Shown here one piece after another: positions 2,728 to 33,164 of a stretch of 33,164 bases of DNA. Where the stretch lies: the IMG/VR virus record IMGVR_UViG_3300044627_000209, positions 1-33,164 of that record; one strand, written 5' to 3'. The notes under the pieces were generated by a model. The model was not told the DNA's origin, made no database searches, and was given only the letters and a program-made list of their open reading frames with translations. Both the position numbers and the translations under genes were made by a program. The DNA comes from a virus. Each line of letters begins with the position of its first letter. Position 1 is the stretch's first letter.

Positions 2728-2917
2728 AAAGGGGCAGGGGTTCTTTATCCCCTGCCTCGACACCGACGCTGTGCGTGAATTCGGCTTAAAGAAAGCCACC
2801 CTCAGTAGAGTTCTTGACGCCCGTGCTAAGACGGGCATCTATCAGGGCTTTACTGGGGTTATGTTTTACCGCCCCCGCCCCCGAACCGCTCCTCCACAAG
2901 GCGTGACTGCCGGATAA
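2687..2917 (+). CDS. Small phage protein of unknown function (76 aa)
   Basis: The ATG lies inside the 3' end of the primase-helicase gene, in another frame, and the product runs 59 nt past the end of the convergent - strand gene. The core has a KGQGFFIPCLD segment followed by a basic, Ala-rich stretch and GVMFYR. I have the impression of similar short 'KGQGFF(I/V)P' proteins downstream of replication genes in aquatic phages, but that is memory, not a search. No membrane segment or catalytic motif is visible. The Shine-Dalgarno is weak (GACGAAG), so translation may be coupled to the primase-helicase. Function unknown; its position suggests a role in replication or early metabolism. Confidence 0.7.
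   Translation: MKLSLIQFPWTKIEKGQGFFIPCLDTDAVREFGLKKATLSRVLDARAKTGIYQGFTGVMFYRPRPRTAPPQGVTAG
2733..2756 (-). terminator. Possible intrinsic terminator of the late (-) operon, distal hairpin
   Basis: Perfect 8-bp inverted repeat GGCAGGGG / CCCCTGCC with an 8-nt loop. Read on the - strand it is followed by CCTTTT, a short and interrupted U-tract; on the + strand no U-tract follows. It lies about 100 nt after the stop of the 2959-residue gene and inside the + strand 76-aa gene, so part of the symmetry could be a coding coincidence. Confidence 0.4.
2816..2839 (-). terminator. Hairpin just downstream of the late operon's last stop codon
   Basis: On the - strand GATGCCCGT and ACGGGCGTC form a 9-bp stem with one G-U wobble and a 6-nt loop. 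It begins about 20 nt after the TAA of the 2959-residue gene. On the + strand the wobble becomes a mismatch, so the fold favours the - transcript. No U-tract follows, so it may protect the 3' end or assist the second hairpin rather than terminate alone. Confidence 0.35.
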
Positions 2918-5900
2918 AAGCGTCGGCTCGGTCTTGTTTGGCTTTGTCTAGCGCATCAAGGCGTAACCGTTTTTCTTCTGCCGTCAAGTCATCACGCTCT
3001 TGCGTGCGGCGAATGTCGGTGTTGATGCGCCCAATGATTTGGCGATACTGCCCTGCGGCAGAAGCCATGGCCAACTCCACTTTGTTTTTGTCACGGTAGG
3101 CCACGGCCTCGTCACGACGGCCTTCGCTGAGCATTTTCTTAAATGTAGCATTAGCGTTAACAGCTTCTTGTGCTTCGCGGTACACCACATCGGCATCGCC
3201 ACCACCGTATTTCTTTTGAAACGCTGTACCAATCAGAGGCAAGTCAGACGCACGACCTGCGGGCCTTTCTCCTTTGCCTTCGCGCTCAAACAAACCGTTA
3301 GCCCCAGCCGCTGCCACCAAAGGCAGCACACCCAGATACCCGCGCACAATGTGCTCGATTTGGATTGGAGACAGAATCGGCAACAGCTTACTCATCTGTT
3401 TGGCCAACTCTGTGGTGGTCGCAAGGTAGCGCTCTTCAGTGTCGTATCCTTGCATGCGGCGAGGCTCTATCGGGCCGCCAGTTAAAAAGTTCTTATCACT
3501 CCACACTTCAAACGCAGGCTTAACAAGTGCAGGCACTCCCATAGACGAGTAGCCGGGAACAGAACCCAAGAACAAATCTCGCAGAGCTTGGAACTGCGCC
3601 TTACCATCAGTTTCAGCACGCATACCGTCAACTGCGGCCACAGCCAGCGAGAAGAAGTAGCCAGCCTCAAATGGGATGGGTAGTTTAAGCGGCTCATCCA
3701 CGCCCGGAATAGGCAAGAAGAAGTTGGCGTACTTGTCCCGTGGGCGAGCATTACGGAAGGTCTCGTCGTCTTCCATGGCCATGGCATACACAATACCGGT
3801 GCCCATCAGCAACATAGCGTTGTTAAAGAACTTGCGTTTAATTTGCTGTTGTTCTTCAAAAGGCATGTTGCCTCGAGCGGCTTTAACCAGCACATTCAAA
3901 CCCTGAATCTGGGCGTTGAAGAACGGTATCAAACGGCTGGCGTATTGCAGCGTGGGGGACAACCCACGTTTGTAGAAGTTCATCGACTCCATGGTCATCA
4001 TGTCGGCCTCGACCTCTGACAACCCATTAGCTTCAGCGTTTTTAAGTATCAGTGCTAATGTGGCAGCATCGGCACGCATCGCGTACCGGTCGGCTGCGGC
4101 CAGCACTTTGTCAAGAGCGCCTTGGTCTTTACCACTGGCAAGTTGAAGCGCCATCTTCTTCATGTCAGACATATCGCCCGCAAAGATGTTGGACTGGATC
4201 AGTCCTTTCTCAATCAGCTTAAGCTGTGCATCGCTAGTGCCGCGGCTCATTCGTACAAACTCAGCGCCTGCCTTAAACACGGCTGTAAATGCGTTGTTGT
4301 TTAGGCCGCCAGTAAAGGCTGCAGCCATTGGTTCGCGCAGTAGTTTACGAGCAATATACAAAGGCGTACGGGTCACACCAGCGCGTAGCAAATCAGCGGC
4401 TGCCCCACCTAGTTTAAAGAACCCGGGGAGCGCAAGACTTGCGCCTTCCAAACTTTGCACCACTAGCTCGGCAGGGATGCCTTCGGCTGCAGTGCCTCTG
4501 GTATCCACCACAATGTGGCGCTCGCCTTTATCGTCAGGTTTGTTTGGGTCAGGCTCTTGGTAGAACCGAATGACTTTAGCATCGTCAGGGCCAAGACCCT
4601 TTTTGATGGCCATCAAGTCCGTAGGTTTGCCTGTCTTGGGGTCAACAGGGCCTTTGCCTTTGCCCAGTGCTTGCATGCCATAGGCCACACTCTTGGCGGC
4701 GTTGTTGGTCAGCGCCATGTCCGTCAGCAATAACGTGTTGCGCTGGAGAGCTTCGTTCAATGGCAATAATTTCGTGTCACCGCCTTTGAGTTCTGCAAGA
4801 TATGGCTGACGGCGGATGTCGCCCACGTTAAACGTGACGTTGTTGTTAAAAACCAAACTGGCGTTGCCGTTTTTGTCCACGCGATAGAAAGGCACGTAGT
4901 CGCCTTCCTTAAGCAAGTCCGCCGCCAACTTTTTGGTGATGCGTCCGGTGCTGGCAAGAAACTCAATCATGCCTTTGTTATATGCGTTGTACTTGCGGCG
5001 AACGTTCTCAAGCGCGTTCTTCAAGGCAGGGTTGGCATCCGCCGCAGCCAGAGCAGCAGTCAGTTGTTCCTGCGTAATACCTAACGCGCCAAGGTCTAGT
5101 TTTGCTAATCCTTTGTTGGAGGCACGCTGAGCAACCATATACGTTTGCGCAATGTTGGTCTTTAACTGCGGATCGGCCACAGGAATGTCAGCAATAGCGT
5201 CAAACACATCACGAGCGCTGTTCTGATTGGAACTGCGGTAACCCACAAAACCTTTAGAGTCTTTGTATGCAACCAGCGGGCCGCTGTTCATGACGGTGAA
5301 CATCTGCGCCATCTTCTGTTCGGCCTTACGTACGTGGTACATAGCTTGCATAAACAGACTATCATCACCAAACTTAAGGGTTTCACGTAGTCCCGCACGC
5401 ATATCCACCGCTTGCATCTCGGCTTGCAAGGCAAGGTTGTTACTTAGCTTTTCTTTGAGCGTTTTAGGCTGCGTAGTAATTTGTCTTGACAACGCAATCA
5501 ACGCATTGTCTGGTTCGGGTGCTGCCTTGGTTCTGTATGTTGCTTCGCCAGAGGGCGCTTGTCCCGTGCCAGCTACGCCACCTTCAATTACAAAACGACG
5601 GGCGTTGGCAACAATCTGTTGCACTTCCGCGTCAGTAACATTACCCAAGTTAAACGTAGTGCGGAACCATGCACGCAAACGCTCATATAACTGGCGCAAG
5701 GCGCTTTTTTCTATGGGGGTTGGGTTGGATTCTTCAGCCATTTCAGCCAAAACTTCTTCAACGGCTGTTTGTTTTGACAGCTTTTTGTTTTCTCTAATTT
5801 TGGCGTTAGCTCGTAAACGAACTTCTAAGTTACCGCCGTACAGACTATTCATGGTGTCTGTGTATGCGCCACCAAGCAGTTCACGCAGACCGTAGTGCCC

Positions 5901-8900
5901 AGCAACCTCGTGCGCAACGGTTAAGATTACGTCGTTGGCGTTACTCAAGTTATCTGCAATTAAATACACTTTTTTAGTCCGTGTATCAAATATGCCCGGA
6001 GTAATACCAGTTTTGCGGCCTTCTCTAACAAGTTGACCACGGATGCGCACAGGCAAATCTGCCTCTGTAGCAACAACCACAATCTCAGGAGCGTTGACCC
6101 ATCCTTTGGTAATTCGTGCGGCTAGACGTTCTACTTGCGCAGTCTGCAATGATGTAGGCCCACGAGTAACTGTACGGAATACGTAGCGGTCGTCAAACCC
6201 AGTATCAATATCCTCATCAGTAACGCCAGACATTTCTGTACCGATCAACTGCGTAAACATGGTTTTGTCTTCACCCATGTACGGATCAGATATTTCTTTT
6301 GTCAAGCGGTTGATGTCATCGCCAACGCGATCTAACATAAATTGTGCAGACTCAACATCAGCCTTCAACTTATCTCTGCGGTCTGCTAACGTTGGGTTAC
6401 CAGATGGCACATTGCCAATTTCAGCCAGTTCGTCTTCACTTCTGCTAATAAATTTTATCAAGCGAACGCGATTGTCTTCCATCGCATCAAGAATCTGGTT
6501 CTGTTGCTCGTACTCTTTGGCTTTAAACTCAGCGTCTAGTGTTGCTTTGTCCTTGGCCGCAGCAATACGCTCAGCAAACGCGTTAGCATCTGCCACTGCT
6601 TTTTCAGATGTAATCGGTGCAGGTGTACGGCTTTCAACAATAGGCTGCTTACTAATACCCACAGTAGCTTTGGACTGTTCTGTGCCGCCACGCAGTTTGC
6701 CCGGAGCTTGCGACTGTATGCGCGTAGCTTGGGACACCCTAGACATATTGGGTGGAAGCACTTCGTTAACAGCTTCTATCTGGTCATTGATAAGGCGTTG
6801 TAAGTCAACAATCTTATCGGCTCTGTTTTCTTTAGCCTTCTTGGTCTTAGGCACTGCGCTTGCTTGCAGTGCGTCCATTTGTTTTTGCAAATCTGCAAGG
6901 CGTTTAGTACGACTGTCATACAGCTTGGCACGTTCTTCTTCAGCGGTAAACTCTTCGTCAAGCGTGCCAGACGCTTTCTTTGCGCGTGGGACTAATCGGT
7001 ACTCGCCGGTTTCTTCGTCTTTTTCACGAACCAACAAACTAACGTTTTGCCCTGTTAGAACATTTGTACGGGTAATCCCTAATCTGTTTGACTTGCGTGC
7101 TTGCAACACCTCGCGTTCTTTGAGGAACTCTGCAAAACGTTTGCGACGTTCTTTCTGCGAAGACACAAGCTTTACCAACTTGGCTTGCATGTTTTTTAAT
7201 GTTTCCGGCGTTGCTTTGCCTTCTGACCACTCTAGCTTTTTAGCCTTAATGTCTTTGCGCAGCTTGGCAATAGCGTCTTCGCTCTTGTTGACGGCTTCTT
7301 GTTTTTTAGAAATGGTTTTCTCAAGCTTGGCAATACGATCGTTAATCAGCTTTGTGACTTCTGCGTAAACTTCTGGGTCGCTGGACGTAGCGCGTCTGGC
7401 TTCTAGCAATGCTTTTTGTTTGGTAACTCTGGACTTTTCAAAGTCCTCAATAGACTTTTGCAGGGTCTCAACACGCTTGTTGCCCGCTTCAATCTGTTTG
7501 TTAAAGTCTTCGATTTGGGCAAACAACGCCTTGGCTTCTTTGAGATTCTTGCGGGGGCCGCGGTATGACGCCGCCTTTTCGGTTGCCTCGTCTAGTTTAA
7601 TCTGTACAAGTTCAACACGAACCTGCATTTCCAACACACCCTCTTCCATCTCTTTGATGCGTGCTTCTAACTCTGCAAAGTCTTTTGTGGAAGTCTTAAT
7701 TAACTCTAACATCTCACGACGCTTACTAAAGTCAATACGCTGACCGGACAACGCCTGCAACCTAGCGGTGCTTGCTTGGAAAGCTTCTAACTGTGTTTTA
7801 TTTCTAGCTATTACAGCATCACGTTCAGCAGAAGTTAAAGGCTCAATAGGCACATCAGCCATCTGTGCGCCAAAGCCACGGGACTCTGCCGCGTCTTTAA
7901 TAGCTTTCTCAACGTCTTTGGCAAACTGTGATTCAATGTAACTAGCGTTTTCAGCTTTCTCAATCTCGTTGTCAAGTAAAGCTAAGTCGTTGTCTAGCGC
8001 ACGTACGGCATCGGCACCCAGCTCTTTGGCAGCGCCAATCTCTTGTTTGATAGCTACAATTTCTGGGTGCGTAGACAAGTTAGCATCCAAGTCAACAGCC
8101 GCCAGTTCCAGTTGCAAACCTAAGTCCAAAAGCGTTTTACCGGCTTTGTTTAACTTACGTGTTTCTTCTCGTGCATCTAGCTGCAAACGTAAATCGTTGT
8201 TTAAGAACGTGATAAAAGCCGATGATGGAATGTACGGGTTAACCCTTTGGGTTTCCATTAAATTCTGCAAGTCAGCAATTTCTGCTTCTAGACGAACTAC
8301 TGTGCGTGGCTGAGTAACCCGTGCTTTTGACAACTGTTTTTGTAAATCTTGCAGTTTCTGTCTAGACTCATACAGCAACGGATTGCGTTGACGCTCAAGC
8401 GCAGTGATAACTTTCTGTTGCGCTGCTTCAATGCCGGGTAGTTTTTCGGCAAGACTGCCCAGTTTGTTTCGTGCTTGGCGCAACTCTTCTTTGGCTTTGA
8501 GCGTCTCTTGCGCGGCTTCAACCGCACGGTCGTCCATCTCTTTAAAGTTGGCAATGTTGTTGGCAATTAGGCGGCTGGTCTCTTCTGATCGGTCAGCTAA
8601 CTGGTCTACCTGCGATCTAACCTGCATGTACTCTAAACGCAAAGGCTCAAGCTCATCAGACAGACGTTTTAAAATACCTTCCATACGCACTTCAACATCC
8701 GCAATGATGTTTTTGGCAGCGCGGTCTTCAGAAATTTGTGACTTTTCCAACACGGCTTTGCGTGCTTTCAACGCTTCAACTTGCTTACGTATATTGGCAA
8801 TCTTTGCCTCGTGTTCTTTGACTTGTAACTCCATACGAGCAACAGTCTCACGGGTAATACCCATCTCTTGACGGGCGGCTTTCAAGTAGTCGCTGGCCAA

Positions 8901-11738
8901 ATAGCGGTTTAGTTCGGCAAACGACTCAAAGATCGTGCCCTTCTGTCTAGGTGCATAACGCTCGGCTGCACTGCCTTGGATGGGGCCACGATCTTCGGGG
9001 GCCACGTACTGGACTTTGCCGTTGACGATGCGTGTAGCGGCTTGAGGAGCCACTTGCTCAGGCATAAACTCAGCGCCCAACTCTTGCTGAACGGCTGTCT
9101 GTGTAGGCTTGGTTGCTGTGCCAAAAGCTGTCTCGCGTGTAGGCGTTTCTGTCTCAGAGAGCTTGCCTTCCTCCAATGTACGCAGTGCCGCCTGCACATC
9201 ACGGGTCATCTCAGGGTTACTGTTACCTGTGGTAGCGCGGTTAAGCCACTCACCAATCAGGTTGCGGCGGTCTTCGTTGGCTGTAACAGCGCCATAGTTT
9301 TGAGCAATCTGATCCAGTATCGACATGGTTTGCGTGTCGTAGCGTTGACGCTGCGCATAAGCTCGATCCATCTGGTCGAGCAACATGTCTTGGGTGGTTG
9401 TAGTGGGGATAGCCTCGGCTGGGCCAAACGTTCCGTATTTAACACCTGCACGCCAGCGTGTGCTGACTGCGTCAAGCTGAGGAGTTATATCGTTGCCGTA
9501 GCGTACTGAAGAATCAAGTAACGCGCTCAGTTCTTTTTCAATTTCTGTGATGGTTTCAGGTTTAAGAGAGCCACGAACCAAAGAAATCTCTTTAATTAAG
9601 CCGTCAATAACGTCTTGTTTAGCGTCAACTTTGCCGTTTTTAAAGCTGTCGTAAGCCGCGTCTCGTGCCGTTGCTGCTTCGCGTTGTGCGCGTTCTTGTT
9701 TTGGCAAGCTACCCAACCGTTCCTGCGCGTCTTTTGATTCCGTACCAAACGCGGTTGCACCCCCGCCCTCCATCTTGGCTTTACGCTCTTTCAGGTCACG
9801 GATCTGTTCTAGGAGAGTAGACACACGCTCACGGTTAGACCTACGGTCAATGGCAGTAGGAGCGCCATACGAACGGGCAACGTCTAATTGTTTGTTCAGG
9901 TCATCAATCTGAGCGTCAATGTCTACACGGGTTCCGGCCACAGGCATGTTCACCCGTTGCTGTTCGCCACCAAACAAATCACCTTGGGATGTTGTGCCTG
10001 TCAGCGGTTGGATACGTTCGATGTCTGTAGCGTTGCGGCCTTCTTGCTGCATCTCATAGGCTTGGCGCATCTGGCGCTGGTCTTCAAGTGCGGCGGCTTC
10101 TTCTGCCTCAACTTCGCTAAGTCTGTTTTGGCTTGCATTAGTAGCGGCTTCGCCAGCCGCCTTGTCTTTTGCGTCAATATCGGCAATCTGTAATTCCAAA
10201 CCGCCGTAAATAAGATTCTGTTGTTTTTTGGTTAAACCGGGCAAAGGTATACGTTTTTGCAGTACTTGCTTTGCTAGTACAGGATCAGCAAGCAGGTATT
10301 TAACGTAGTCTTGGGCAGCATCGGCAGGGTCTTTTTCATTTGCCAAACCTTGCGTGTTGGCCAGCGTTATTTGTTTTTTAGCGTAGTCAATCAGCGCTTG
10401 ACCGGGCACAGCAATCTGCTGTTCATAGTAGCCTGCAAGATCAGGCGTACCTTTTGGTGTTGGGGCGGAAGAAACTTCTCCTGTTTGCTCCAGCATGTAG
10501 TCTTGTGGAGTCAGTTGCGCAATACGCGCTTTCTCTTTGAGTTGGCGATACTCAGGCGTTAACTCGCCTAATTGGGCGTACAGTGCGCTGACTTCGGCTT
10601 GCGCTTCTTTATACACAGCTTTTTCTTCAGGCGTAGCATTCTTGCCGGGGTCTTTGAGTACTTTACGTTTATCTTGGTACTGCTGAAGTAAATCTTGGTA
10701 GTCTTTTGTAAACTTAATTGCGTACTCAGGTTTTTGTTTTTCTGCTTCTAATGCCTGTGCAGCAGCTTCTTCTTGAGTTTTCTGTTGCTGTGCTTGTTCG
10801 GTACGGCGTTGTAAATCTTCGGCTCGATCAAACTCTGCCGCTTGCCGCTTGGCTCCCCCACGCTCTAACGCACGGCCAGCAGGGGCTAAGGTTCCGGCTA
10901 ACACAGCGCCGCCAATAAAACTGTCGATGTACTCTTTGCGGGCCTCGGGGCTGTCAAGTTCTAAGCCTGCTTGCAGACGCTCAAGCAATTGTTGCGTGGC
11001 TTCTGTTACACCTTCTCGGCTCATCGCTACGCCCGTCTTGGCGGTGTAGTCTGCAATAGTGCGGGTTAGTGTTTGGGATGCAATTGCTTTAGCTTGTTCA
11101 GTCGTAAGTTTTGAACCCACAGAGCCAAACAGCTTGCCCACACCGGGCAACAACGCCATGGCAGCGGTGTCAATTAAAGCTTGCGGAACGGCTGCGGCTA
11201 CAGCCTTGCCAAGGCTGGCCTCTTCCAGCGTCTTGCCTGTCTCCACCTGAGCGCCAAGGTTGGAACCCGTGAACTGTCCCGTAGATACTGCACCTGCACC
11301 CAACAAACCTAGGCCAGCCGCAACTGGCGCAGATACTGGGAGGGTTAACGCCGCAAGACCTGCGGCGGCGGGGGCGGCCATGTAAGGAACAGACCCGCCA
11401 AGAAGTTCTCGAAACTTTAAAAACGGGTCTTCAGTAAAACCTTTTTCGGTTGGAGTAAACCGCTCCTGTGCACGTTTCTGTGCGGCTTCGTATTCTTTTT
11501 GCGCTTCAGCTTCGCTCTTAATGCCAAGCTTACCTTTGAGCAATTCAAACTCACCGCCCAGTCGGGTGGCACCGGCAGACGCTGCAGCTTTGAAACCGGA
11601 GGTGTCTTGCTTGGGTTTGTCTTCACCTTTAAACAACTCGGGAAACAACTGGCGAGCGGCCATCATCCCTTCTACGGGCGACTGCCCCTTCTTTAATTCA
11701 AGGGCGCTGCCGTCAGGAAGTTCAATGTATCGTGCCAT
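2859..11738 (-). CDS. Giant virion-associated polyvalent protein with zincin motif and LPD38-like domain (2959 aa)
   Basis: At 8.9 kb this is the largest gene and the last of the late operon. The N-terminus (YIELPDGSALELKKG) matches a leader common in large phage virion proteins. A Gly/Ala-rich hydrophobic stretch follows (about residues 112-200), typical of proteins that enter membranes. The centre (about 950-1700) is Glu/Lys/Gln-rich and predicted coiled coil. HEVAGH at 1943-1948 is a zincin motif, with EEVLAE at 1994-1999 supplying a plausible third ligand. The region from about 2600 to 2760 (FFNAQIQGLNVLVKA, then hydrophobic helices) resembles the large polyvalent protein-associated domain LPD38, and the C-terminus is charged and helical. 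The inferred role is an internal virion protein ejected into the host, opening an envelope path or cleaving a target. ATG start; the Shine-Dalgarno is poor. Domain names rest on motif memory. Confidence 0.85.
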   Translation of the reverse strand: MARYIELPDGSALELKKGQSPVEGMMAARQLFPELFKGEDKPKQDTSGFKAAASAGATRLGGEFELLKGKLGIKSEAEAQKEYEAAQKRAQERFTPTEKGFTEDPFLKFRELLGGSVPYMAAPAAAGLAALTLPVSAPVAAGLGLLGAGAVSTGQFTGSNLGAQVETGKTLEEASLGKAVAAAVPQALIDTAAMALLPGVGKLFGSVGSKLTTEQAKAIASQTLTRTIADYTAKTGVAMSREGVTEATQQLLERLQAGLELDSPEARKEYIDSFIGGAVLAGTLAPAGRALERGGAKRQAAEFDRAEDLQRRTEQAQQQKTQEEAAAQALEAEKQKPEYAIKFTKDYQDLLQQYQDKRKVLKDPGKNATPEEKAVYKEAQAEVSALYAQLGELTPEYRQLKEKARIAQLTPQDYMLEQTGEVSSAPTPKGTPDLAGYYEQQIAVPGQALIDYAKKQITLANTQGLANEKDPADAAQDYVKYLLADPVLAKQVLQKRIPLPGLTKKQQNLIYGGLELQIADIDAKDKAAGEAATNASQNRLSEVEAEEAAALEDQRQMRQAYEMQQEGRNATDIERIQPLTGTTSQGDLFGGEQQRVNMPVAGTRVDIDAQIDDLNKQLDVARSYGAPTAIDRRSNRERVSTLLEQIRDLKERKAKMEGGGATAFGTESKDAQERLGSLPKQERAQREAATARDAAYDSFKNGKVDAKQDVIDGLIKEISLVRGSLKPETITEIEKELSALLDSSVRYGNDITPQLDAVSTRWRAGVKYGTFGPAEAIPTTTTQDMLLDQMDRAYAQRQRYDTQTMSILDQIAQNYGAVTANEDRRNLIGEWLNRATTGNSNPEMTRDVQAALRTLEEGKLSETETPTRETAFGTATKPTQTAVQQELGAEFMPEQVAPQAATRIVNGKVQYVAPEDRGPIQGSAAERYAPRQKGTIFESFAELNRYLASDYLKAARQEMGITRETVARMELQVKEHEAKIANIRKQVEALKARKAVLEKSQISEDRAAKNIIADVEVRMEGILKRLSDELEPLRLEYMQVRSQVDQLADRSEETSRLIANNIANFKEMDDRAVEAAQETLKAKEELRQARNKLGSLAEKLPGIEAAQQKVITALERQRNPLLYESRQKLQDLQKQLSKARVTQPRTVVRLEAEIADLQNLMETQRVNPYIPSSAFITFLNNDLRLQLDAREETRKLNKAGKTLLDLGLQLELAAVDLDANLSTHPEIVAIKQEIGAAKELGADAVRALDNDLALLDNEIEKAENASYIESQFAKDVEKAIKDAAESRGFGAQMADVPIEPLTSAERDAVIARNKTQLEAFQASTARLQALSGQRIDFSKRREMLELIKTSTKDFAELEARIKEMEEGVLEMQVRVELVQIKLDEATEKAASYRGPRKNLKEAKALFAQIEDFNKQIEAGNKRVETLQKSIEDFEKSRVTKQKALLEARRATSSDPEVYAEVTKLINDRIAKLEKTISKKQEAVNKSEDAIAKLRKDIKAKKLEWSEGKATPETLKNMQAKLVKLVSSQKERRKRFAEFLKEREVLQARKSNRLGITRTNVLTGQNVSLLVREKDEETGEYRLVPRAKKASGTLDEEFTAEEERAKLYDSRTKRLADLQKQMDALQASAVPKTKKAKENRADKIVDLQRLINDQIEAVNEVLPPNMSRVSQATRIQSQAPGKLRGGTEQSKATVGISKQPIVESRTPAPITSEKAVADANAFAERIAAAKDKATLDAEFKAKEYEQQNQILDAMEDNRVRLIKFISRSEDELAEIGNVPSGNPTLADRRDKLKADVESAQFMLDRVGDDINRLTKEISDPYMGEDKTMFTQLIGTEMSGVTDEDIDTGFDDRYVFRTVTRGPTSLQTAQVERLAARITKGWVNAPEIVVVATEADLPVRIRGQLVREGRKTGITPGIFDTRTKKVYLIADNLSNANDVILTVAHEVAGHYGLRELLGGAYTDTMNSLYGGNLEVRLRANAKIRENKKLSKQTAVEEVLAEMAEESNPTPIEKSALRQLYERLRAWFRTTFNLGNVTDAEVQQIVANARRFVIEGGVAGTGQAPSGEATYRTKAAPEPDNALIALSRQITTQPKTLKEKLSNNLALQAEMQAVDMRAGLRETLKFGDDSLFMQAMYHVRKAEQKMAQMFTVMNSGPLVAYKDSKGFVGYRSSNQNSARDVFDAIADIPVADPQLKTNIAQTYMVAQRASNKGLAKLDLGALGITQEQLTAALAAADANPALKNALENVRRKYNAYNKGMIEFLASTGRITKKLAADLLKEGDYVPFYRVDKNGNASLVFNNNVTFNVGDIRRQPYLAELKGGDTKLLPLNEALQRNTLLLTDMALTNNAAKSVAYGMQALGKGKGPVDPKTGKPTDLMAIKKGLGPDDAKVIRFYQEPDPNKPDDKGERHIVVDTRGTAAEGIPAELVVQSLEGASLALPGFFKLGGAAADLLRAGVTRTPLYIARKLLREPMAAAFTGGLNNNAFTAVFKAGAEFVRMSRGTSDAQLKLIEKGLIQSNIFAGDMSDMKKMALQLASGKDQGALDKVLAAADRYAMRADAATLALILKNAEANGLSEVEADMMTMESMNFYKRGLSPTLQYASRLIPFFNAQIQGLNVLVKAARGNMPFEEQQQIKRKFFNNAMLLMGTGIVYAMAMEDDETFRNARPRDKYANFFLPIPGVDEPLKLPIPFEAGYFFSLAVAAVDGMRAETDGKAQFQALRDLFLGSVPGYSSMGVPALVKPAFEVWSDKNFLTGGPIEPRRMQGYDTEERYLATTTELAKQMSKLLPILSPIQIEHIVRGYLGVLPLVAAAGANGLFEREGKGERPAGRASDLPLIGTAFQKKYGGGDADVVYREAQEAVNANATFKKMLSEGRRDEAVAYRDKNKVELAMASAAGQYRQIIGRINTDIRRTQERDDLTAEEKRLRLDALDKAKQDRADAFIRQSRLVEERFGGGGGKT

Positions 11739-20116: not shown

Positions 20117-20593
20117 CTAGGATAGAAACACGGCACGCTCGTCGATGCGACGCTTTTGCAGCCCTTTGAGAATTTTACCCCCAGCCATGCAATACTTCAA
20201 GAGTTCTTCTGCTGCGCCTGCCATATCACCACGAATCACTTTCTGACGCATGGTTGACCGCTGAAGCGTACCTAGCCCAACATTGAATGAAAATGATACC
20301 AGTGCGTCAAACTGTCCTTGAGTAAGAGGCACAGGACAATAAGTGGCCACGCCTTTCTCAAACCGAGCAAGATCGGCTTTAAGTATTGCATTGACTTCCT
20401 CCATGCTGTGTTTACGCATAGCCTCTGGCGGAGGTACAAAAGCATCCCGCTGGTCTATCTTGAGCTTGCCCTGCTCTGGAAACATGACGTGCCCAACCCC
20501 CACAGTCCACAACTTTGCTGGACATTTATACGGGTTTTGCCTGACACCTTCATGGTGGCGGATCATGTGCAGGCACTTGTCTGAGATGTTCAT
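20117..20593 (-). CDS. Endolysin, T4-like lysozyme / muramidase (GH24), 158 aa
   Basis: Hydrolyses the beta-1,4 bond between N-acetylmuramic acid and N-acetylglucosamine in peptidoglycan at the end of infection. The catalytic pattern is E15-(8)-C24-(5)-T30, i.e. the T4-type E-8-D/C-5-T triad with Cys replacing Asp, followed by VGVGH. A later GQFDALVSFSFNVG block is the other family signature. There is no signal peptide or SAR anchor (start MNISDKCLH), so release depends on the holin. The length is normal for the family. Its ATG overlaps the holin stop (ATGA), placing both in one coupled lysis cassette. Confidence 0.93.
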   Translation of the reverse strand: MNISDKCLHMIRHHEGVRQNPYKCPAKLWTVGVGHVMFPEQGKLKIDQRDAFVPPPEAMRKHSMEEVNAILKADLARFEKGVATYCPVPLTQGQFDALVSFSFNVGLGTLQRSTMRQKVIRGDMAGAAEELLKYCMAGGKILKGLQKRRIDERAVFLS

Positions 20594-21105
20594 TTACCAA
20601 ACGCCCGACCACCAAAGTGGAAAGCAATGATAGAAGCAAACAGGGCTTGGGTATCAGAGTCCCACAGCATCTCGGCTAACTCTACGAACGTAGCGCCACT
20701 GTGCCAGCCGTAGGCAAACAGGCCAACATCCACAAACAAAAGCAAAAAGAAGAAACCATAAGTAATGACTGGGCGAACGCTGGCTCTCAGGTTCTTCATC
20801 CACTGGGATGTGCCCTCGTTTAAACTTTCATCGTGGGCGTAGATTGCCTGCATCTCCGCTTGCTGTGCGCCAATCAGAATTTGCTGGGTGTTGGCTGCGC
20901 TCTCGGTTGCCAACTGGTCTGACCGGATATTCTCAATGCGCTCCTGCGCTTCAAAGCCTGCTTTACGCAGTTCCAATTCACGCTCAATCTGTAGCCGAGC
21001 AAGATTTAGTTCATGTAGTTTGTCAGCCTTGTCTTGGAAGAAGTCCAGCAACTTGGGCAAGCCGCCCATGAGAAACGAAATCAGGGTTGAGATAAGGGTT
21101 AGCAT
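20590..21105 (-). CDS. Holin-like membrane protein, GTA-type 3-TM family (171 aa)
   Basis: A hydrophobic N-terminal helix (residues 3-19) is followed by a charged coiled-coil stretch (21-90). Two strong membrane segments come next: 113-133 (after RASVRP) and 152-168 (ALFASIIAFHFGGRAF). The RPVITY...FHFGGRAF arrangement resembles holins of the 'three TM, gene-transfer-agent release' family. It would form inner-membrane holes that let the cytoplasmic endolysin reach the wall. The adjacent endolysin gene starts within its stop codon, which supports the call. The start overlaps the upstream stop by one base (TAATG). Confidence 0.82.
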   Translation of the reverse strand: MLTLISTLISFLMGGLPKLLDFFQDKADKLHELNLARLQIERELELRKAGFEAQERIENIRSDQLATESAANTQQILIGAQQAEMQAIYAHDESLNEGTSQWMKNLRASVRPVITYGFFFLLLFVDVGLFAYGWHSGATFVELAEMLWDSDTQALFASIIAFHFGGRAFGK

Positions 21106-21710
21106 TAGTTTCCTCTTTTAGTTAACATTGTCGCTGAAATTTCCATCATTGAGATGATGTGTTCCATGTTGTCAGGCTGAGTAGACCACCCTGCTGTAAC
21201 CTGCCCTATAAATCGACTGCGATCTGGGGGTACAGATATTCGGCAAGTGTAACCAACTCCTTGCCCTATGTACCAAATACCCAATTCACTTTGTGGGCGC
21301 AAATACTGCCCGCAAGGGACATCCCCTGCCATTAGCTTTACAACATCGTTGTTGTTTGCGTGGTTGGCTGTAAACAGCCCAACATCCAAGCCTTCTAACT
21401 CTTTACTGCGACCATCCTTGGTATACAGCCTGTATAGAATCCGAGTACCCAATATGGGGTTGACCTTGAAGATAGCCACAAACTTAGCGTCTGTTTGTTT
21501 AAACAGCACAGAAGCCGCATCATCTGTTCGCTCTTCATTGATGCTTGGCATCTTCTTTTGCTCTTGATACGCAGAGATCAAGAACGATTGGTTCTGCCAA
21601 AACACATAACCCACAAACGCCACAACCCCCATGACAAGGATTGCAAACAGTTTAAACGGGCTGTCTACATAGCCAAGCACCGTACTGAGAGTAGATTTTT
21701 CTTTGGTCAC
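21105..21710 (-). CDS. Membrane-anchored periplasmic protein of the lysis cassette (201 aa)
   Basis: The start is GTG, in a GTGA overlap with the upstream 50-aa gene; no better start exists. One N-terminal membrane segment (residues 19-38) is preceded by Lys-containing sequence, so the remaining ~160 residues probably face the periplasm. That domain is mixed alpha/beta with two cysteines (C133, C156) that could form a disulfide. No protease, amidase or spanin coiled coil is obvious. Position between a small membrane protein and the holin suggests control of lysis timing (antiholin-like) or envelope sensing; this is inference and I do not recognise the family. Confidence 0.78.
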   Translation of the reverse strand: MTKEKSTLSTVLGYVDSPFKLFAILVMGVVAFVGYVFWQNQSFLISAYQEQKKMPSINEERTDDAASVLFKQTDAKFVAIFKVNPILGTRILYRLYTKDGRSKELEGLDVGLFTANHANNNDVVKLMAGDVPCGQYLRPQSELGIWYIGQGVGYTCRISVPPDRSRFIGQVTAGWSTQPDNMEHIISMMEISATMLTKRGN

Positions 21711-21859
21711 CCAAGTCCAATCATTCCAAGTAGTTTATTGACAATCTTGTCTGACAGATTGTCAGGCAAGAACCGCAAAAGCCCAAGCACCCACCAAGCA
21801 ATGCACAACCGCACAAAGACTTTAAGGAAGAGGTCAAACTGTTTTTGGTACTCATTCAC
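21707..21859 (-). CDS. Small one-TM protein of the lysis cassette (50 aa)
   Basis: Starts at GTG 21859 in a GTGA overlap with the stop of the 164-aa gene and ends in a GTGA overlap with the next gene. Both junctions have the coupling geometry used throughout the operon, which supports it strongly despite its size. The product begins (M)NEYQKQFDLF, has one hydrophobic segment from about residue 14 to 30 containing CIAWWVLGLL, and ends with an amphipathic tail (LPDNLSDKIVNKLLG). An ATG-started alternative frame in the same stretch gives a non-hydrophobic Ser/Cys-rich peptide and does not fit the junctions. Possibly an antiholin or lysis regulator; function unknown. Confidence 0.72.
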   Translation of the reverse strand: MNEYQKQFDLFLKVFVRLCIAWWVLGLLRFLPDNLSDKIVNKLLGMIGLG

Positions 21860-22350
21860 CGACCACACCTTGATCTAGCACACAGATCAGAGACTTCATT
21901 GATACCCCATCCAACAGCACCAACAAACATCACAATAATAACAATGGCAACTGCCCATTGCATTTGTTCGGCCTCGTCCTCTTTGCGCTTTTTCTCTTCG
22001 GCGTGTAAAGCCGCCATCTCTTTGGCATCATCCCTGTCCATTTCAGCTTGACGGGCTTTGGTTGCATTCCATACGTCTATGCGTCCAGCTTGCATGAACA
22101 ACATTTTTAACTGCTCTTCAAACCGCTTGGCCTCATCCAAAGCCATCTCAATTTGTAACGCCGCACCAAGGTTAGACTTACCGCCCGTACGCTTGGCTTG
22201 GAGCATAGCCTTGGTAGCGGTTGACTTGGCATCAAAGAGCTTGGCAATTGACGGAGTTAAACCTGCCAGATCACTAGCAACTTTACTAGCTTTTTTAACG
22301 ACACTGATTGCAGTTTGCAACCCTTCTAGCGCCGTGATCGGATCAATCAT
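21856..22350 (-). CDS. C-terminal-anchored membrane protein of the lysis cassette (164 aa)
   Basis: The product starts MIDPITALEGLQTAIS and is helical and Ala/Lys-rich, with a charged coiled coil (about residues 65-128) ending in one membrane segment at 131-149 (WAVAIVIIVMFVGAVGW) and a short tail. I recall a widespread family of aquatic-phage proteins with the same plan (IDPITA... start, W near residue 94, C-terminal TM) beside lysis genes. Function is not established. The ATG overlaps the stop of the upstream 50-aa secreted protein gene (ATGA), and AAGG lies upstream. Could be a spanin-like or holin-partner protein; the C-terminal anchor argues against a classical i-spanin. Confidence 0.78.
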   Translation of the reverse strand: MIDPITALEGLQTAISVVKKASKVASDLAGLTPSIAKLFDAKSTATKAMLQAKRTGGKSNLGAALQIEMALDEAKRFEEQLKMLFMQAGRIDVWNATKARQAEMDRDDAKEMAALHAEEKKRKEDEAEQMQWAVAIVIIVMFVGAVGWGINEVSDLCARSRCGR

Positions 22351-22499
22351 CTTCTAACCTTTTGCCACTCAAGGCATACTACTTTACGGTTATACACATC
22401 TCCTGTCCAAGCCCAACGTACACAGCGGTATTCCGTCTTTCTATCTTGGCTGGCTGCTCCCGGTAGAAACACCAAAAAGAGCATTAAAAGCCAGCGCAT
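22347..22499 (-). CDS. Small secreted protein with signal peptide (50 aa)
   Basis: The ATG at 22499 follows the chaperone-like gene's stop by 6 nt, and the TGA overlaps the next ATG (ATGA). The first 17 residues form a good signal peptide: MR, a Leu-rich core, then PGAAS as a probable cleavage site. There is no lipobox cysteine, so it is not a standard o-spanin. The mature ~33 residues contain C26 and C42, several Trp (RCVRWAWTGDVYNRKV) and a basic end (QKVRR), suggesting a disulfide-closed periplasmic peptide. The gene is too short for usual length cut-offs. Its place at the head of the lysis cassette suggests an envelope role; the family is not firmly recognised. Confidence 0.72.
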   Translation of the reverse strand: MRWLLMLFLVFLPGAASQDRKTEYRCVRWAWTGDVYNRKVVCLEWQKVRR

Positions 22500-22505
22500 A
22501 GATCA

Positions 22506-22952
22506 TTAGGGTGTCTCAGGCCAAGTGATTGTCCAAGGGAACCCAGCTTGCGCAGTAATGTCACGCAGTGCTTGGCGGTATGTTGCCCATGCAGTTTTAT
22601 CCGCAGTGCTGTCAGCAATCTGTGTCCAGTCGCTGTCTTTAAGTTTTTCAGTACGTTGCTGGCGTATGGCCTTGGCCTGCGCTGTATCTAAAGCGTCTTT
22701 GGCTTCTTGATTCATATCGGAGACGCTGTACTTTGTGTACCATTTACCCTCAATCTGCTCAACGCCATCGCGGAACGCCACCTGATAACGGGTTGGCTGG
22801 GCTTGCGGGCCTTCAAACACTACGTCAGCGCCCAAGCTTTCCAAGACTTCAGTTGTTGTTATGCCCCATGTTGGGCCATCGTTGGCTTTGGTGTACGCAC
22901 GAAATTCTGCTTCGTACATGACTGCGCCGGATTGTTGAATTCTAATTTGCAT
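22506..22952 (-). CDS. Phage tail-assembly-chaperone-like protein (148 aa)
   Basis: The C-terminal ~60 residues (RQQRTEKLKDSDWTQIAD, then TAWATYRQALRDI and PWTITWP) match the pattern of the phage tail assembly chaperone family found next to fibre genes (Phage_tail_APC, named from memory). The N-terminal part is beta-rich (MQIRIQQSGAVMYEAEFR). It follows the 650-residue fibre gene, whose TAA is merged with its AAGGA ribosome site; this is the usual place for a fibre chaperone. The inferred role is to help fold or attach the fibre. It could alternatively be a minor tail subunit. Confidence 0.78.
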   Translation of the reverse strand: MQIRIQQSGAVMYEAEFRAYTKANDGPTWGITTTEVLESLGADVVFEGPQAQPTRYQVAFRDGVEQIEGKWYTKYSVSDMNQEAKDALDTAQAKAIRQQRTEKLKDSDWTQIADSTADKTAWATYRQALRDITAQAGFPWTITWPETP

Positions 22953-30324: not shown

Positions 30325-30990
30325 TCAAGTTACCTTCTGACGGAACTGACCAGAACGATACGCGTCTTGACGCTCCATACCATCACCCAAACGTTTAGCT
30401 AACGCAAGAGCTTCCATAAACTTGCCGTTATACAACTGCATCATATCGGCTTCACCCTTCATGTAGGTGTAAGCCTCAACCAAAGAGCCATACAACAGTA
30501 CAGAATCAAAATTGTCGCCCAGCCATGTAGTAGAAGCTGTGACAATTGACTCAGGGTAGTAGTAATAGTGCAACTCAACTGTGTAATTGGCATCTGGCTT
30601 TGGGCCAAGAATAAACGTTAATTCGTCAGTAATTGTGCTACCACTAACAGTAGGGCCAAACAAAGCATAGTACCTTGGCAAACCCACATCGCTAGCGCTT
30701 GGATATGCCTGACGAATAAAGTTAACGTCTTTGTTCAACAAGTATTCATAGTTGCCGTCGGCATCAATAACAGCCAGTGAATACGAGGCTAAGTAGTCAT
30801 CAGGCGCGGACAAGTATGTACTGGTGGTAGATACCACGCCCGTCATGTTCTTACGAATCGAAGGGAACTGCACCGAGTTGTAAATACGCTGCTCAGCTTG
30901 CTGAACGAACACGGGTATTTCAGCGATAAAGTCCGCTTCGGTATTTTCCGTGTACGCTTGGATCGCGTTGCTGAGTTCAGTGTAATTCAT
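30325..30990 (-). CDS. Head-tail adaptor / tail-tube-A-like neck protein (221 aa)
   Basis: The N-terminal ~45 residues (YTELSNAIQAYTENTEADF, then FVQQAEQRIYNSVQFP) form the helix pattern of phage adaptor proteins that ring the portal in short-tailed phages (SU10-like adaptor, T7 gp11-type). A beta-rich middle (RYYALFGPTVSG, FILGPKPDANYTVELHYYYYP) and a helical C-terminus with SVLLYGSLVEAYTYMKGE follow, as in that fold. It would join portal to tail and hold DNA in. The ATG overlaps the stop of the preceding 81-aa gene (ATGA). Fold call is by pattern, fairly sure. Confidence 0.78.
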   Translation of the reverse strand: MNYTELSNAIQAYTENTEADFIAEIPVFVQQAEQRIYNSVQFPSIRKNMTGVVSTTSTYLSAPDDYLASYSLAVIDADGNYEYLLNKDVNFIRQAYPSASDVGLPRYYALFGPTVSGSTITDELTFILGPKPDANYTVELHYYYYPESIVTASTTWLGDNFDSVLLYGSLVEAYTYMKGEADMMQLYNGKFMEALALAKRLGDGMERQDAYRSGQFRQKVT

Positions 30991-31811: not shown

Positions 31812-32271
31812 GTGCCACCTCAAACTTATTCTTCTTACGTACGTTGTCTACGCCACGCAAAAACTGAAGGTTGTTTGGTACATGCAACCCCGACACAAGT
31901 TTACCTTGCAATGGAACTATGTGGTCAACATGCCACGGTTCTTTATTATTACGAGCCAACATTGCCGCAACCGAGTAGTAGCATTTAATCTTCAACCGGT
32001 CAAATGGGGAAAGCCACATAGGTGTACGTTGCTTAACCACTTTTTTGCGCATCGAACACAAAAAGTTTATTTTGCCTTTGTTTGCTTGTCTGTACTCTCG
32101 TTTTTGCGCTAGGTTTGCTTCTCGTGCAGCGAGATATGCAGCCCGTTTATTGGCAATGATTTTCTCTTTGTTAGCCGCCCTGTAAGCGCGTTTAACCGCT
32201 GCAATACGGGCTTTGTTGGCCTCGTAGTACGCCTTGTGGTACGCAGTGTCGGTAACGCGTTTTGACTTCAT
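31804..32271 (-). CDS. HNH endonuclease (155 aa)
   Basis: The C-terminal domain has WHVDHIVPL (H114, D116, H117), then GLH, VPNNLQFL and DNVRKKNKF, the classic HNH order. The first ~70 residues are Lys/Ala/Tyr-rich repeats (YEANKARIAA, YRAANKEKI, YRQANKGKI), a DNA-binding style seen in phage HNH proteins. It sits between a neck gene and a zinc-ribbon gene and overlaps both (ATGA upstream, 8 nt downstream). It may be a homing nuclease or a packaging-associated HNH; the first is more likely because the terminase is not adjacent in this window. Confidence 0.88.
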   Translation of the reverse strand: MKSKRVTDTAYHKAYYEANKARIAAVKRAYRAANKEKIIANKRAAYLAAREANLAQKREYRQANKGKINFLCSMRKKVVKQRTPMWLSPFDRLKIKCYYSVAAMLARNNKEPWHVDHIVPLQGKLVSGLHVPNNLQFLRGVDNVRKKNKFEVAHG

Positions 32272-33164
32272 GTACCACTACCAATAAACATCTGACGTGG
32301 AACAAAACGAACCGAAGCCTTTTCACGATCTTCATCAGCGGCCAACTGCCAAGCCTCATCGTACTGTTGTTTTAAGATAGGCAAGCGTTCAGCGCCATTC
32401 TCAATCTTAAGGGCCAAATAATAGGCTAAACCTGCCACCATACAAGGCAGAAAGCGGAAAGGCACGTCCATCGTGCGTACACCACCGCCAGCATCATCAA
32501 TACGGCGCATGCGCCAGTAAACGAACTGATACGTTGCACTGTTGTCTGGGGTTGGCCAGAGGGTCACAGAAGGCAGATTCTGCGTGTATGCGGCTACGCC
32601 TGTTAAATGCGCCGCCGCAGTTGTACCATTCTGCCCACGGAAACAGTTAGTAAGCACGTTGCCAGAGATATAGCCGTACTGAATAGTCTCAGACTCAATC
32701 AACAAGAACCCTGTAGCGGGTAATCCAGCCACTGAAGTCAGTGTGATTGTTGTGTCTGTGGCTGTAATCCCGCCGTTTAACGTAGTGCCAATCGAAGAAG
32801 TCTGGCCATCCAAACGCTGATACCACACCTGAATCGGGCGGGCTTGTTGCAGTTTGTTGGGGATCGTGGCATAGGTAGAAACACTAATACGCGTAATGGT
32901 TAAGTCAGCTTGCGTGGATGCGCTACCCGCGCCCGTACGAATCACATGCTCAAGTAGATCCACTGTATCTACGGGTAGTGCGTAGTTGTTTAGACCCGGA
33001 GTCAGGTTAATTGTCCCCTGCTCAAACGTCCACATGTTGACACCGCGGTTTGCCCAATCAGCAAACATCAAATTCAATGATCGACGAGCTGTACGTAAAT
33101 CGTAGCCCGTACGCAACTCCGAACCGGCGCGTTCAAACGCTTCCTCAACCAACTCAGTAAGGTC
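32268..33164 (-). CDS. Neck / head-tail connector-like protein, 5' partial (298 aa in window)
   Basis: The frame is open to the right edge (first in-window residues DLTELVEEAFERAG), so a few N-terminal residues are missing; a TTG at 33152 is not the start. The helical N-terminus (LVEEAFERAG...GYDLRTARRSLNLMFADWANRG, read as two blocks) precedes a beta-rich domain (NNYALPVDTVDLLEHVIR) and a helical C-terminus (FRFLPCMVAGLAYYLALK). This plan fits tail accessory / adaptor proteins near the portal (compare P22 gp4), and the second adaptor-like gene downstream agrees. Exact family uncertain. The stop overlaps the HNH ATG. Confidence 0.75.
   Translation of the reverse strand, partial: DLTELVEEAFERAGSELRTGYDLRTARRSLNLMFADWANRGVNMWTFEQGTINLTPGLNNYALPVDTVDLLEHVIRTGAGSASTQADLTITRISVSTYATIPNKLQQARPIQVWYQRLDGQTSSIGTTLNGGITATDTTITLTSVAGLPATGFLLIESETIQYGYISGNVLTNCFRGQNGTTAAAHLTGVAAYTQNLPSVTLWPTPDNSATYQFVYWRMRRIDDAGGGVRTMDVPFRFLPCMVAGLAYYLALKIENGAERLPILKQQYDEAWQLAADEDREKASVRFVPRQMFIGSGT

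Follow-up and report, generated by a model that had tools for sequence, protein, structure and literature searches.

The window analysed here, the whole 33,164-base stretch of IMG/VR virus record IMGVR_UViG_3300044627_000209, is a linear contig that may be incomplete. Six minus-strand genes (C1 to C6) span positions 22499-20117, with successive overlaps of 4, 4, 4, 1 and 4 nt. The upstream edge of the cassette is set by a gene for a tail fibre assembly chaperone, whose end lies 6 nt ahead of C1, and a 703-aa gene beginning 8 nt past C6 bounds it downstream.

22506-22952, minus strand: tail fibre assembly chaperone (PF16778, E 2.2e-19)
22347-22499, minus strand: C1, ATG start, 50 aa, predicted secreted
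21856-22350, minus strand: C2, 164 aa, 4-nt ATGA overlap with C1
21707-21859, minus strand: C3, GTG start, 50 aa, single transmembrane (TM) segment, 4-nt GTGA overlap with C2
21105-21710, minus strand: C4, GTG start, 201 aa, 4-nt overlap with C3, T4-T-like holin candidate
20590-21105, minus strand: C5, 171 aa, 1-nt overlap with C4, remote relative of GTA_holin_3TM and ICP1 TeaA
20117-20593, minus strand: C6, 158 aa, 4-nt overlap with C5, endolysin (GH24-type lysozyme)

The longest open frame at C3 extends to 21868. A preliminary description of this DNA had proposed a coupled lysis and membrane cassette of six reading frames joined by overlaps of 1 or 4 nt, and the frames, their junctions and the coupled character of the cassette were all borne out. 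The overlaps recur in relatives, with -4 nt spacing kept between C1 and C2 in 10/11 cases, between C2 and C3 in 29/31, between C3 and C4 in 15/15 and between C5 and C6 in 98/104. Hydropathy likewise agrees that five of the six products are membrane or secreted proteins, though the signal peptide of C1 is short and no 19-residue hydropathy window in it exceeds 1.25.

Relatives were collected through IMG/VR scans with C4, C5 and C1, which found hundreds of loci, the best 80 per scan being kept, and dN/dS was calculated from pooled Nei-Gojobori counts. In frame, C3 gave a dS of 1.63 and a dN of 0.23 (dN/dS about 0.14), C1 gave 0.51 and 0.047 (about 0.09), and the core motif of C1 alone gave 0.91 and 0.031. 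The other forward frames of C1 and C3 showed no purifying selection and contain stops in most sequences, and reverse frame 1 carries a weaker echo of selection that mirrors the codon positions. Purifying selection was also detected on C2, C4, C5 and C6, and no run of strongly suppressed synonymous change, as a hidden overlapping gene would leave, was found in C2 to C6. C1 and C3 recur in dozens of loci with their overlaps kept, and relatives of C1 are encoded in at least 577 of 599 candidate IMG/VR stretches, among the matches listed. Both frames are short and neither has a Pfam or PHROG match, as might be expected of spurious open reading frames, but the strong in-frame purifying selection and the wide synteny refute that reading and leave it practically no chance. 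C1 and C3 are genuine genes because they combine in-frame purifying selection with recurring overlaps. The preliminary description had staked the two 50-residue genes on conservation and on selection at synonymous sites, and both turned out in their favour.

At the downstream end of the cassette, C6 matches PF00959 at E 6.6e-36 (123.8 bits against a cut-off of 22.3) and the phrog_7 endolysin family at E 3.8e-44, confirming the earlier reading of the last gene as an endolysin. Since no signal or SAR sequence is visible in C6, it should need a holin. C5, which had been named as that holin, has an N-terminal hydrophobic segment, a long helix and two C-terminal hydrophobic segments with an FxFG motif at the end; hydropathy places segments at 2-20 and 113-131, and the third (about 150-168) falls under the threshold used. 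This segment layout and the FxFG ending are shared with proteins of the GTA_holin_3TM family (PF11351) and with TeaA of phage ICP1, whose holin activity was experimentally tested (PMC7182436), and a profile-profile comparison by hhalign links C5 to PF11351-type proteins and TeaA with a probability of 88.9 and E 2.4e-6. C5 differs from them in giving no direct match to PF11351 above the Pfam cut-off (a relative, L078, reaches E 0.97) and in belonging to a group of its own, phrog_6637 (E 6.4e-21). Clear PF11351 proteins occupy the place of C5 in other cassettes with C4 (L009, E 1.9e-22). By sequence, C5 is thus placed as a remote GTA_holin_3TM/TeaA relative that would act as a holin. A below-cut-off Pfam match of C5 to PI3K_P85_iSH2 was set aside because it resembles coiled-coil or TM noise.

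C4 presents a second holin-type protein. A single N-terminal TM segment at about 19-37 precedes a GAF-fold domain of ~150 residues, the topology of a class III holin (as defined in PMC9636201), and the protein would lie N-in with a periplasmic domain. Two cysteines, Cys133 and Cys156, are invariant in 40/40 sequences. A Foldseek search of the PDB with an AlphaFold2 model of C4 (pLDDT 83.9, built from 40 sequences) put T4 holin T first, through its periplasmic domain (6psk_T, E 1.1e-5, TM-score 0.70 by target); the T chains of 6psk, 6pxe and 6px4 (E from 1.1e-5) came before generic GAF domains or were interspersed with them. Among viral models, the fold matches of C4 include proteins annotated as T-type and as class III holins. 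T4 holin T (PF11031; 6PSK/6PXE/6PX4) and C4 are alike in having one N-terminal TM segment, a large periplasmic GAF-like domain and a length of about 200 aa. They differ in sequence: C4 has no PF11031 match at E<=1, nor has its homologue in phage GF-2, whereas T4 T itself scores E 1.5e-118, and the similarity of the C4 profile to T4 T is marginal (score 20.3, against 18.4 for the best of 30 shuffles). They differ also in setting, the C4 gene lying in a compact overlapping operon by an endolysin and a 3TM protein. C4 belongs to PHROG 31287, a family without annotated function, at E 4.9e-18 and weakly matches phrog_860, the T4 T family, at E 0.021; its profile found no meaningful match among PDB sequences. 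Below-cut-off Pfam matches to Bax1-I and DUF4199 resemble coiled-coil or TM noise and were rejected.

The genomic settings of C4 homologues point in the same direction as the fold. The homologue in Edwardsiella phage GF-2 lies behind antiterminator Q and immediately ahead of a lysozyme and an Rz-like spanin. That of Vibrio phage IKEMa6-1 overlaps the gene of a GH24-like endolysin, after which comes Rz with a lipobox ORF embedded in it. Neither record yielded a PF11351 or PF11031 protein. Cronobacter phage S13 (a T4 relative in the Straboviridae; KC954775, 53403-53984, L161) also carries a homologue, and T holin was undetectable in this phage by a search that found T4's own T, making the C4-type protein a candidate replacement of gene t. 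As the GAF fold is widespread, fold alone is no proof of holin function. Taking fold, topology and position together, C4 is a T-like holin candidate outside PF11031, with predicted holin activity. The preliminary description, which left four of the six genes without function, therefore counted too many, and its single holin, C5, becomes a remote family relative and one of two holin-type proteins. On this assignment, the T4-T-type holin fold reaches a large set of small phages in which sequence searches fail to detect it.

With a T-like C4 and a GTA_holin_3TM relative in C5, the cassette has two holin-type proteins, and this is usual, as a 3TM-type holin lies within 2 kb in 99/128 C4 loci (those with 2 kb of downstream sequence). 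A different division would have C5 as the only holin and C4 as its inhibitor or timer, either a periplasmic sensor of the GAF type or an antiholin. GAF domains are mostly sensory folds, and C5 and the endolysin are neighbours in almost every cassette of this lineage. Furthermore, 17/65 C5-sampled cassettes contain neither C4 nor the 2-TM protein TM93, and C5 must suffice as holin there because both are absent. Against a purely regulatory C4, its homologue stands alone before the endolysin and Rz/Rz1 in GF-2 and IKEMa6-1, and T4 holin T takes first rank in its fold search. We consider this division of roles unlikely, with two holin-type proteins the preferred reading.

About 290 viral loci were compared with profiles for 16 small families. 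The cassettes are combinatorial, with recurrent slots: a 30-aa TM peptide; C1 or SP95; C2 (with C3) or CC79; C4, TM93 or neither; C5 or a PF11351 protein; and a GH24, GH108 or other endolysin. Among C5-sampled loci, C4 occurs in 17 and TM93 in 31, with both in 0 and neither in 17 (Fisher p 1.4e-6), and C2 occurs in 24 and CC79 in 39, with both in 0 and neither in 2 (p 8e-16); as the loci are related by descent, these p-values overstate independence. C3 accompanies C2 in all 24 of the C2-bearing loci, and the pairs C2-C3 and SP95-CC79 replace each other across viral loci. The 30-aa single-TM peptide, TM30 (MKDWAEAFIAA...GTYMIAW; L078:4435-4530, about 170 relatives), opens most related cassettes and is missing from the window. 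SP95 (L124:4472-4759, L084:4206-4493 and relatives) is a secreted protein of 90-114 aa with an MKW/MRW start as in C1, of which it is the positional counterpart, and it directly follows C4 in 41/171 C4 loci. It is modelled with confidence as a domain of four helices (pLDDT 88), two of its cysteines are invariant, and a fold search with this model gave no PDB match below E 0.99. SP95 was considered as an RI antiholin and rejected, as its profile found no RI chain in the PDB and its model no RI-like fold. The module swaps (C4 with the 2-TM protein, C2-C3 with SP95-CC79, and the endolysins) offer a natural set for testing how holins divide their labour.

The front module begins with C1, in which a predicted signal peptide leads into a cationic mature part of 33 aa with a net charge of +5, two invariant cysteines and conserved Trp (YRCVRWAWTGDVYNRKVVCLEW). 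In the alignment, the signal peptide is variable, and hardly any change is seen in the mature core, YRCVRWxWTGDVYNRKVVCLEW. C1 and C3 were found mainly in uncultured viruses. A search of 50,697 phage records at E 0.1 found no C1 other than a diverged form in the virome assembly MW202879, and GTDB genomes gave no credible match; the sole match in a bacterial genome (L300) was a chance 11-residue similarity with no other cassette gene. C1 is a conserved secreted peptide of hundreds of uncultured viral contigs, easy to overlook because searches found it in neither cultured phage records nor bacterial genomes. C2 is the next gene after C1 in 68/77 scored cases and overlaps it in most loci. Its product is helical and cytoplasmic, with a C-terminal TM segment at about 132-150 by hydropathy and a short periplasmic tail, CARSRCGR, and matches phrog_32327, a family without annotated function, at E 1.9e-7; a below-cut-off Pfam match to EssA resembles coiled-coil or TM noise and was discarded. 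The two-Cys tail is present in 61/61 scored loci with C1 versus 14/42 without it, an association that the clade structure of C2 may explain. C2 and C3 are predicted to form an inner-membrane complex, C1 probably closes into a small hairpin by oxidation of its cysteines to a disulfide, and C1 and C2 may be in contact.

The preliminary description had noted that no lipobox and no classical spanin pair are visible, and this holds in the record, where no protein matches PF03245, PF06085 or phrog_312 and no lipobox ORF lies on the coding strand. The search for a lipobox in an overlapping frame led to a 44-aa frame inside C3 (21855-21721, LLGGC), which exists here and is not conserved: its length runs from 8 to 44 aa in relatives, the lipobox varies, no selection is seen, and its ATG is present only because Asn-Glu happens to be encoded AATGAG. 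It could be that C1 with C2-C3 breaks the outer membrane, a secreted cationic, W-rich disulfide peptide replacing the spanins. Disruptin-type peptides are cationic and act on the outer membrane, and C1 resembles them in being small, cationic and phage-encoded. The lack of Rz/Rz1 in the record and the composition of the mature peptide would both suit this role. However, C1 differs from disruptins in its signal peptide and invariant two-Cys core, and in three loci (L285:5132-6784, L290 and L293), C1-C2-C3 lie upstream of a two-TM protein, an Rz-like i-spanin in which an Rz1-like lipoprotein is embedded, and a different endolysin, with an HNH-like gene between C1 and C2 in L290 and L293. Because these three cassettes carry Rz/Rz1, C1 does more than stand in for a spanin. 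In SP95 cassettes lacking C1, and in many relatives without it, no spanin turned up in the examined flanks. A near-invariant core behind a variable signal peptide fits interaction with one particular protein more readily than a general assault on membranes. We therefore regard a role in outer-membrane disruption as distinctly improbable. The preliminary description left this disruption to another route or to one of the cassette's unplaced proteins, and a need for the latter is not supported, given the three loci with Rz/Rz1, the many C1-less relatives without a flanking spanin and a record that may be incomplete. A conserved lipoprotein (MKLLALAVCSVALTGCATNSEYA...) just upstream of the TM30-C4-C5-GH24 cassette in L040:644-1276 and 23 other loci is possibly a spanin-type protein.

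Regulation of lysis is the leading and most likely role proposed for C1-C3. A competing proposal gives these genes an envelope function, superinfection exclusion or some other late change to the host, for which the lysis operon is just the carrier. The module does move among cassettes with differing holins and endolysins (GH24, GH108 and the canonical Rz/Rz1 set) and is dispensable in many relatives, as such a passenger might be. It nevertheless adjoins lysis genes wherever flanks are readable, and overlapping start and stop codons couple its translation to theirs, so that we judge a passenger role doubtful and retain lysis regulation as the preferred reading.

The locus is a lysis cassette of known kind and new composition, in which a T-like holin candidate, a putative 3TM holin and an endolysin follow an exchangeable C1-C2-C3. 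As in lambda-type S-R-Rz/Rz1 cassettes, holin-type genes directly precede a GH24 endolysin with overlapping ends; the record differs in having no Rz/Rz1, two holin-type proteins and a three-gene front module. Gene reality, selection, synteny, module exchange, the endolysin family and the C4 fold match were computed here, and around them we propose, with a probability of about 0.6, a translationally coupled holin-endolysin unit with an exchangeable envelope or regulatory front module, in which C4 is the T-like holin, C5 the 3TM holin and C1-C3 tune timing. C6 would accumulate in the cytoplasm until the holin-type proteins release it through the inner membrane. C4 would act as a class III T4-T-like holin, N-in with one TM segment and a GAF-fold periplasmic domain, and C5 could be the holin where C4 is absent; the presence of a periplasmic-domain holin together with a 3TM holin suggests that one may set or gate the triggering of the other. 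C1-C2-C3 would most likely adjust the moment of lysis, acting from the periplasmic side, with C1 secreted and probably oxidised to its small hairpin, and C2-C3 as a putative inner-membrane complex with a two-Cys periplasmic tail that never fails to accompany C1. T4 T works with the antiholin RI; no RI homologue was found here, the fold search showed no likeness of SP95 to RI, and no antiholin homologue was recognised. A more specific and rather speculative version is that the secreted, disulfide-stapled 33-residue C1 acts via the two-Cys tail of inner-membrane C2-C3 to gate C4 and C5, an undescribed way of inhibiting lysis, not of the RI kind, that would be common among uncultured phages. If C1 does control lysis, it would be a component of lysis inhibition outside the T4 RI system.

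Elsewhere in the window, the SU10 adaptor family (PF24175) is matched by two separate genes, at 30325-30990 and 32268-33152. The 2,959-aa product of positions 2859-11738, probably ejected together with the DNA, carries an LPD38 domain close to its C-terminal end (PF18857, E 2.4e-24).
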